From Candidatus Wolfebacteria bacterium RIFCSPLOWO2_01_FULL_47_17b (lineage in GTDB: Bacteria; Patescibacteriota; Minisyncoccia; UBA6257; JAGOQP01), in contig MGIS01000023.1 in assembly GCA_001793865.1 (NCBI GenBank), positions 136,573 to 170,580 of the forward strand: a stretch of DNA of 34,008 nt, read 5' to 3'. Under the pieces are notes generated by a model. The model was not told where the DNA came from. It saw nothing but the letters and a program-made list of their open reading frames with translations, and ran no database searches. This document shows positions 14,529 through 22,174 of the stretch, piece after piece. Position 1 is the first letter of the stretch, and the number at the start of each line of letters is the position of its first letter. A program made the translations under genes and the position numbers.

Positions 14529-15509
14529 TCATTCTGAATGAACATGAAGAATCTTTAGTTGTAGTTTGTGTGCATTCCCATGCTTCAGTAACCCCAGATA
14601 CGAATTGAGTGTTTCCGGCGTGGGAGATGCCTGTATGCGCTTGAACATCCTTTTCTTAGTCGCCGTCCGCAATACCCGATGATCGGGAAAATGCACCCAA
14701 CCGAGGAAATCCACTCCTGACCCTATGGTTTTGATAAATAACTTGTCTTCGTGCAGCGAAAGCTTCAATTTTTCAGACAGGAATTTTTGTATGATGGGAA
14801 TGATATTTTCTAACTCCCCTCTCTCGCGAAAAAGAAATACAAAATCATCTGCGTATCTGATGTAGTACTTTTCTTTGAGCGCATGCTTCACGAACTGGTC
14901 AAATTCATTCATATACACATTTGCGAATAATTGAGAGGTGAGGTTACCCAACGGCAGTCCCTTGCCTTCTATTGGATTGAAACTGCGTATAATCCGCTCG
15001 CAGAGCCAAAGCGTATCCGTGTCTGTAATATGCTTTTGGATGATTGAAATAAAAATATTGTGATCAATATTCGCAAAGAACTTTCTGATGTCACATTTGA
15101 GCACCCAGCATTGTTTGGTGTTGTTTTTGGATACAATGCGGATAAATTTTTCAAAGCGATAGAGTGCTCGGTGCGTTCCTTTATTATTCCTGCATGAATA
15201 GGAATCGTACTCAAATTTCTTTTCAAAATATGGATATAGTTTTCTGTACATGGCGTGATGAAGCAGTCGATCGCGCACGGGAGCGATATGTATAATCCGC
15301 GGTTTTGGGTCTGATATCTTAAGAACTCTATACGCGCCGTGGCGGTATGTTCTGTTTTGGAGATCTCGATACAAAGAAAAGAGATGATCCATCAATTGCA
15401 GTTGAAAATGCGCGATGTCTTTTCTATTTCTTTTTTCCTTCAAAAACTCTTCCCAAGCTTCAAGCAAGTTTTGCACGGAAATAAGTTCTTCGTATGGACT
15501 TTGACGCAT
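14529..15509 (-). CDS. Diversity-generating retroelement reverse transcriptase
   Basis: RT palm motifs CDIRKFFANIDH and YIRYADDFVFLF; DGR-type motif GLPLGNLTSQLFANVYMNEFD; flanked by Avd and a TR/VR pair. Confidence 0.97.
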   Translation of the reverse strand: MRQSPYEELISVQNLLEAWEEFLKEKRNRKDIAHFQLQLMDHLFSLYRDLQNRTYRHGAYRVLKISDPKPRIIHIAPVRDRLLHHAMYRKLYPYFEKKFEYDSYSCRNNKGTHRALYRFEKFIRIVSKNNTKQCWVLKCDIRKFFANIDHNIFISIIQKHITDTDTLWLCERIIRSFNPIEGKGLPLGNLTSQLFANVYMNEFDQFVKHALKEKYYIRYADDFVFLFRERGELENIIPIIQKFLSEKLKLSLHEDKLFIKTIGSGVDFLGWVHFPDHRVLRTATKKRMFKRIQASPTPETLNSYLGLLKHGNAHKLQLKILHVHSE

Positions 15510-22016: not shown

Positions 22017-22174
22017 TGCGCCCATGAAGAGTCGAACTTCAATTATCCCGATATATGCCATTTGTGCGTCTGAGAGGAGTCGAACCCCTATTACGGGATC
22101 CGCAATCCCGCGTCCTATCCATTGAACGACAGACGCATATCATCGGGACGTCCTATCCATTGAACGATGGGCGC
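22017..22174 (-). tRNA. Outer, interrupted tRNA (anticodon GAT or CAT depending on insert boundaries), hosting a second tRNA in its anticodon loop
   Basis: GCGCCCA...TGGGCGC acceptor perfect; D arm GTTC-AATGGATA-GGAC; anticodon stem TCCCG...CGGGA; T arm TGAAG-TTCGACT-CTTCA. Halves 22174-22137 and 22064-22017 flank an intact tRNA. Confidence 0.6.
22065..22136 (-). tRNA. tRNA-Arg (anticodon GCG)
   Basis: 72-nt cloverleaf: GCGTCTG/CAGACGC acceptor, GTTC/GGAC D stem with A20, CGGGA-TTGCGGA-TCCCG anticodon arm, AGGGG-TTCGACT-CCTCT T arm, discriminator A. Confidence 0.9.

Follow-up and report, generated by a model that had tools for sequence, protein, structure and literature searches.

The window, i.e. 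the whole 34,008-nucleotide stretch of DNA analyzed here from Candidatus Wolfebacteria bacterium RIFCSPLOWO2_01_FULL_47_17b, contains by ARAGORN and Rfam a sole tRNA, a tRNA-Arg(GCG) on the minus strand that is enclosed by the halves of a second tRNA. Read along the minus strand from 22174 to 22017, the locus consists of the 5' half of the outer tRNA, the left arm of an insert, the complete inner tRNA, CAAATGGCATATATCGGGA, and finally TAATTGAAGTTCGACTCTTCATGGGCGC-A (Table 1); the insert measures ~100 nt and the whole precursor 158 nt. This nesting was described in a first-pass annotation of the DNA, and its coordinates and sequence check. The outer pair 22174-22018 was also recovered independently by our own split-tRNA scan of the whole genome, a program used in place of the intron mode of ARAGORN, which mis-paired many nests.

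Table 1. Parts of the nested tRNA-Arg locus, in window positions
Feature	Positions	Strand	Basis
Outer tRNA-Arg 5' half GCGCCCATCGTTCAATGGATAGGACG (acceptor 5' strand GCGCCCA, D arm; ends at tRNA position 26)	22149..22174	-	Sequence and split-tRNA scan; 26-nt identity to tRNA-Arg(GCG) of genome G004 (L032)
Insert left arm TCCCGATGATAT, pairing with the right arm; the repeat reaches 2 nt (GC) into the inner tRNA	22137..22148	-	Sequence; arm statistics over 78 nests
Complete inner tRNA-Arg(GCG); the genome has no other gene for Arg(GCG)	22065..22136	-	ARAGORN/Rfam, 59.2 bits
Linker CAAATG and insert right arm GCATATATCGGGA	22046..22064	-	Sequence; arm statistics
Outer tRNA-Arg 3' half: TAAT variable loop, T arm TGAAG-TTCGACT-CTTCA, acceptor TGGGCGC, discriminator A	22017..22045	-	Sequence and split-tRNA scan; 25/29 nt as in the G004 tRNA-Arg

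The outer acceptor GCGCCCA/TGGGCGC is paired at all 7 positions and the outer T stem TGAAG/CTTCA at all 5, as the annotation had it, but its third outer stem, an "anticodon stem" TCCCG/CGGGA, is better taken as the base of an inverted repeat that extends beyond it, TCCCGATGATATGC / GCATATATCGGGA. The 17-nt anticodon arm of the outer tRNA is gone and this inverted-repeat base stands there; the whole anticodon arm is likewise replaced in another nest, L099. Since the insert arms took the place of its anticodon arm, the window outer is, judged from its sequence, unable to decode. The 7-nt loop with a GAT or CAT anticodon that was predicted to follow excision of the insert is arithmetically possible but fortuitous, a by-product of the cut that is chosen. 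The precursor folds with z = -3.45. An Rfam search of the window locus returned the tRNA plus one sub-threshold unrelated match and no group I or group II catalytic core, and a group I/II intron was rejected at this nest for lack of such a core. Elsewhere in the window (14532-15509, minus strand) lies a 326-aa reverse transcriptase that resembles group II intron and DRT/retron-type enzymes and scores below every curated cut-off.

The two tRNAs in the host genome

The host genome is a 100% complete MAG of 730 kb in 25 contigs. RpoB, TsaD, RNase Y, PEP synthase and RecG of the window, together with related Brennerbacteria and Liptonbacteria loci, place it in the Parcubacteria group of the Patescibacteria, and the host, a tiny bacterium, is probably a parasite. 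The outer tRNA was a tRNA-Arg of a type present in the host family, as follows from its match to the intact tRNA-Arg(GCG) in G004, a genome of the same family; the four differences in the 3' half are two compensated T-stem pairs. The first-pass annotation had offered tRNA-Ile(GAT) or tRNA-Met/Ile2(CAT) as its identity, and this was rejected: the acceptor and D arm are of Arg type, and a look through the genome for other genes of these kinds, suggested along with that reading, turns up two intact tRNA-Ile(GAT) and two tRNA-Met(CAT) genes besides one tRNA-Ile(TAT). The D arm common to inner and outer is that of most Arg(GCG)-type tRNAs in relatives. The 53 ordinary tRNAs of the host genome include one Arg(GCG), the inner, and no Arg(ACG); the inner tRNA is presumably essential.

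Besides the window nest, the split-tRNA scan of the host genome gave one real interrupted tRNA, the sole tRNA-Phe(GAA) (contig C23:68571-68861, minus strand; L374 9672-9962), which carries a group I intron (Rfam RF00028, 77.3 bits). A second, decayed nest lies on contig C10:38021-38163 (minus strand), where an elongator tRNA-Met has downstream of it a GTGCGGGG arm and then the degenerate 3' half of an outer tRNA with a GTTTAATTC T loop; the 3' half is mutated and the 5' half lost. No empty site was found for the window locus, and same-family synteny of this locus was rejected on G001, which has an HD-domain homologue without an adjacent tRNA-Arg.

Nested cognate tRNAs across Patescibacteria

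Nests were sought as two T arms 28-58 nt apart, a spacing too small for tandem tRNAs. The pattern scan finds such pairs in 78 of 246 genomes of the order, 136 of 392 of the class and 71 of 389 of the phylum, these being counts of pattern matches that include a few terminators or protein-coding tandem repeats; the reversed control pattern gave about a dozen matches in the order. A perfect outer acceptor with a D arm is present at 67 of 149 sites as against 1 of 149 with scrambled acceptors, and on this and the folding of the window precursor the nests are not due to chance. Nor is the arrangement an assembly artefact of one genome, since a check of its conservation, which the first-pass annotation had proposed, shows that the nested structure recurs in many other MAGs. 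Many isotypes are affected, and some loci (L267, L268, L298 and L303) are multi-layered, with more than one outer 3' or 5' half.

Several loci show further features. The nested Glu loci L321 (G239) and L392 (G365), from different orders, are identical over more than 270 nt and diverge just past the outer 3' end, which reflects either a recent transfer or MAG contamination. At L112, L126, L131 and L292 there is no outer 5' half, and downstream of a tRNA its own 3' half is repeated almost exactly; these loci may be scars of classical integration or nests that were half lost. Outers often contain further hairpin inserts devoid of a tRNA, as in L272, L273, L274, L286 and L308 (CCTGCCTGC.., CCCCGAAGG..CGGGG and TCCCGC..GCGGGATTGCGATTT..AAATCGGGAA), the last of which also occurs reversed in Ser nests.

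Inner and outer tRNAs are cognate and, in most cases, foreign to one another. With isotypes assigned by nearest neighbour, they agree in 73 of 78 parsed nests (expected 8.9, maximum 19 in 1000 permutations), and at least two of the five disagreeing nests look like assignment artefacts. When the inner tRNA of each nest is ranked among same-anticodon inners of other genomes by its closeness to the outer, its mean fractional rank is 0.45, and it is the closest in 9 of 53 cases where 10 are expected. Near-identical inserts, including arms, linkers and inner tRNA, are found within different and well-paired outers in the Ala nests L284 and L298 of different families. In G038, a complete genome, each anticodon present has exactly one intact tRNA; there are four nests (Val, Thr, Gly and Glu), and no intact gene other than the inner serves the anticodon in any of them.

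Two syntenic comparisons bear on the order of events. In G009 an intact tRNA-Arg beginning GCACCCG is present, and the same-genus genome G004 shares its upstream gene (70% over 484 nt); in G004 the GCACCCG tRNA-Arg is broken after ATTG, with a hairpin in its D loop and its 3' half missing, and is followed by an intact GCGCCCA-type tRNA-Arg(GCG). In a syntenic Tyr-Thr(TGT)-Thr(GGT) cluster, G230 has a GCCACCT outer with a GCCGAAG inner, and G038 a GCCGAAG outer with a GCCGGGA inner, the inner of G230 being the same as the outer of G038 over all 56 nt compared. A syntenic empty site and an outer that is the former resident, as in-place replacement predicts, are thus found in G009/G004 for Arg and in G230/G038 for Thr, and since the first pair supplies the empty site and the second an inner turned outer, replacement has been serial. 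The GCGCCCA type, for its part, is the newcomer in G004 and the outer in the host genome of the window. In these cases, what arrives in one round of replacement is displaced in the following one.

The same data bear on an origin by local duplication, in which palindrome-induced template switching or unequal recombination would have copied the resident into itself, with divergence or conversion to follow. The first-pass annotation had favored duplication or conversion, and the identity of inner and outer in the Gly nests L273 and L274 fits such an origin, as does the inverted repeat that enters the 5' end of the inner tRNA in 15 of 78 nests (none when shuffled), a signature of fold-back copying. 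However, the newcomer is unlike the resident in the empty-site and serial cases, and an inner tRNA that resembles its own outer no more than a random same-anticodon inner does makes local duplication unlikely; recent self-duplication was rejected for most loci on the above rank and count. This origin is accordingly given little weight.

Outer halves and insert arms

The outer halves have aged more than the inner tRNAs: the T stem is perfect in 119 of 149 outers as against 141 of 149 inners (imperfect in 30 and 8, respectively), and U33 or the anticodon is absent from many, several Pro outers being without U33 and many Ala nests without an anticodon. An RNA intron might nevertheless be proposed, in which RNase P and 3' processing free the inner tRNA and the joined outer halves form a second functional tRNA. 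Excision would restore the anticodon of the inner in the majority of parsed nests, often within a 7-nt loop (in G038 with the anticodon split as TG/T for Thr, TA/C for Val and C/TC for Glu), and outer stems are often fully paired and different from those of the inner; a decoding tRNA would thus result from excision in many other nests but not in the window. Against this stand the loss of the anticodon or of U33 just described (the anticodon also in the window and L099) and the finding of a group I or group II intron in none of 19 nested loci. The first-pass annotation envisaged a split tRNA joined by an RtcB-type ligase, and a look-up of RtcB (PF01139) in related genomes, which it suggested, gives a match in 15 of 61 and none in the other 46; the host genome and G038 have none. 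An RtcB-spliced intron was therefore rejected for the host, whose outer in addition has no anticodon arm. Scanned whole, the host genome and G038 contain no hairpin-interrupted tRNA that lacks an inner cognate, save the group I tRNA-Phe, and every anticodon is served without any outer. A removable intron is thus considered improbable; because of the G038 gene set, the T-stem decay, the missing U33 and anticodons, and the absence of RtcB, the outers are treated as remnants, with splicing possible in other lineages.

It is about as unlikely that the outer halves are kept as a natural tRNA scaffold that assists the inner tRNA in folding, protection or processing. The acceptor, the T stem and the arms do pair, and the low folding z-score of the window precursor is in keeping with this; nothing requires a scaffold, though, the inner persists where the outer is lost or decaying (Arg in G004, Met in the host genome), and most tRNAs in the same genomes have no outer.

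Exact inverted arms of at least 8 nt, which agree with the terminal inverted repeats of MITEs, bound the inserts in 52 of 78 nests as against 4 when shuffled. With the repeat running on into the inner tRNA, the right arm looks as if the left arm and the first tRNA nucleotides had served as its template. Dispersed elements of 50-140 nt in G038 and the host genome are bounded by CCCCGCACC../..GGTGCGGGG or CCCCGTTAGA../..TCTAACGGGG, which are nest arm families. Several such same-arm elements, devoid of a tRNA, have 4-bp direct duplications (e.g. TCAA, TAAA and TTCA), and the dispersed elements are apparently an undescribed MITE-like family. Target duplications were not seen at the tRNA junctions of tRNA-bearing inserts, and such inserts were not clearly found outside tRNA genes. 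That tRNA-bearing elements transpose at random finds no support as the only explanation, tRNAs with a downstream GTGCGGGG arm being mostly in or beside cognate tRNA remnants, or followed by ordinary terminators. The IS200/IS605 Y1 transposase was rejected as the required enzyme: the host genome has four RAYT-size copies and G038, with its four nests, none.

The anticodon loop is a known sublocation of integration, and nests might accordingly be remnants of ordinary integrase-driven integration at tRNA genes from which the element was later deleted. L112, L126 and L292, where there is only a tRNA and an exact copy of its 3' half, would suit this origin. From classical integration one expects a restored chimeric tRNA and a single fragment, an outcome that differs from a whole foreign cognate lodged between both halves with inverted arms. 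At the window, in place of an integrase, a chimeric restored tRNA and a direct-repeat fragment, there is an intact foreign tRNA between the halves in an insert that is too small for an integrase, and in the loci read the same outer halves nowhere enclose an intermediate-length insert with integrase genes. Such remnants therefore have only a slight chance of explaining the nests.

Probable replacement in place and related systems

The resident tRNA-Arg(GCG) of the window was probably inactivated, and its function taken over at the same locus by another tRNA-Arg(GCG) that an insert brought in; of the three options of the first-pass annotation, i.e. a scaffold, a split tRNA or a tRNA broken by insertion, it is the last that the evidence supports. 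A tRNA gene flanked by inverted-repeat arms would enter the anticodon region of the resident gene and break it, with loss of the anticodon arm, and the inner would take over as the sole Arg(GCG) tRNA, making the insertion irreversible. The outer halves, presumably still co-transcribed and able to pair, would decay over time. A MITE-like insert that has a tRNA as its passenger is the simplest account. We infer horizontal movement of the insert, an origin of its arms from dispersed MITE-like repeats of the same genomes, and selection as the reason why nests are restricted to cognates, since a non-cognate insertion into a single-copy tRNA gene would be lethal and a cognate one survivable; there is possibly an added target preference for tRNA loops. 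Against replacement by such an insert, no tRNA-bearing insert has been caught moving, no mobilizing enzyme was found, a random transposon would also leave tRNA-bearing copies outside tRNA genes, and the junctions do not have the target duplications of the dispersed repeats. Moreover, the many outers with perfect stems unlike those of the inner, and excision to the same anticodon, are also expected of a spliced intron. More speculative, and rather doubtful at present, is a new minimal class of selfish element, an arm-flanked tRNA gene that would home into the anticodon region of its cognate, destroy that gene, become essential itself and have swept repeatedly through the Patescibacteria, the repeat that extends into the tRNA 5' end pointing to fold-back copying in its mobility.

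Phages, ICEs and islands are integrative elements that insert in tRNA genes and leave tRNA fragments (PMC9897764). The nests share with these the tRNA gene target, a newcomer that preserves tRNA function and the tRNA fragment left behind, but differ in the split on both sides, the complete and different cognate, the inverted arms and, in the window, the ~100-nt insert without an integrase. In Caldiarchaeum the disruption of a tRNA-Thr, with intron gain and a displaced tRNA fragment, is attributed to a mobile element (PMC3293823); this differs as a 1.8-kb recombinase-encoding element associated with archaeal introns, and the abstract mentions no nested cognate tRNA. Intron-containing and split tRNA genes of archaea are interrupted in the anticodon region (PMC4090602, PMC3218864), whereas the nests have a bacterial host that lacks RtcB, an anticodon that is often destroyed and an insert that is itself a tRNA gene. 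MITEs and palindromic repeats are alike in their terminal inverted repeats and dispersed copies in the same genomes; unlike them, the inserts with a tRNA seem to occur in cognate tRNA genes only and have no clear target duplication. Bacterial group I introns insert in tRNA anticodon loops, as does the one in the tRNA-Phe of the host, but the nested inserts are without a catalytic core.

No earlier report of nested tRNAs in Patescibacteria was found in the open-access literature. Mobile elements in tRNA genes, displaced fragments, archaeal disruption and tRNA introns are known; what appears to be new is the serial, phylum-wide nesting of a complete foreign cognate in the gene that it replaces, and there is a fair chance that nested tRNA replacement will deserve a class of its own once its mechanism is known. 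tRNA genes are usually seen as stable, vertically inherited and near-untouchable, above all where a reduced genome has a single gene for each anticodon. The nests suggest that they are overwritten in place, repeatedly, by unrelated cognates in about 1/5 to 1/3 of the sampled Patescibacteria genomes. If this is true, the nests would be a fossil record of horizontal tRNA replacement in which each outer is the previous resident, odd tRNA annotations in Patescibacteria genomes would be explained, and it would become testable whether a mobile element can have a tRNA gene itself both as its cargo and as its strategy for survival.
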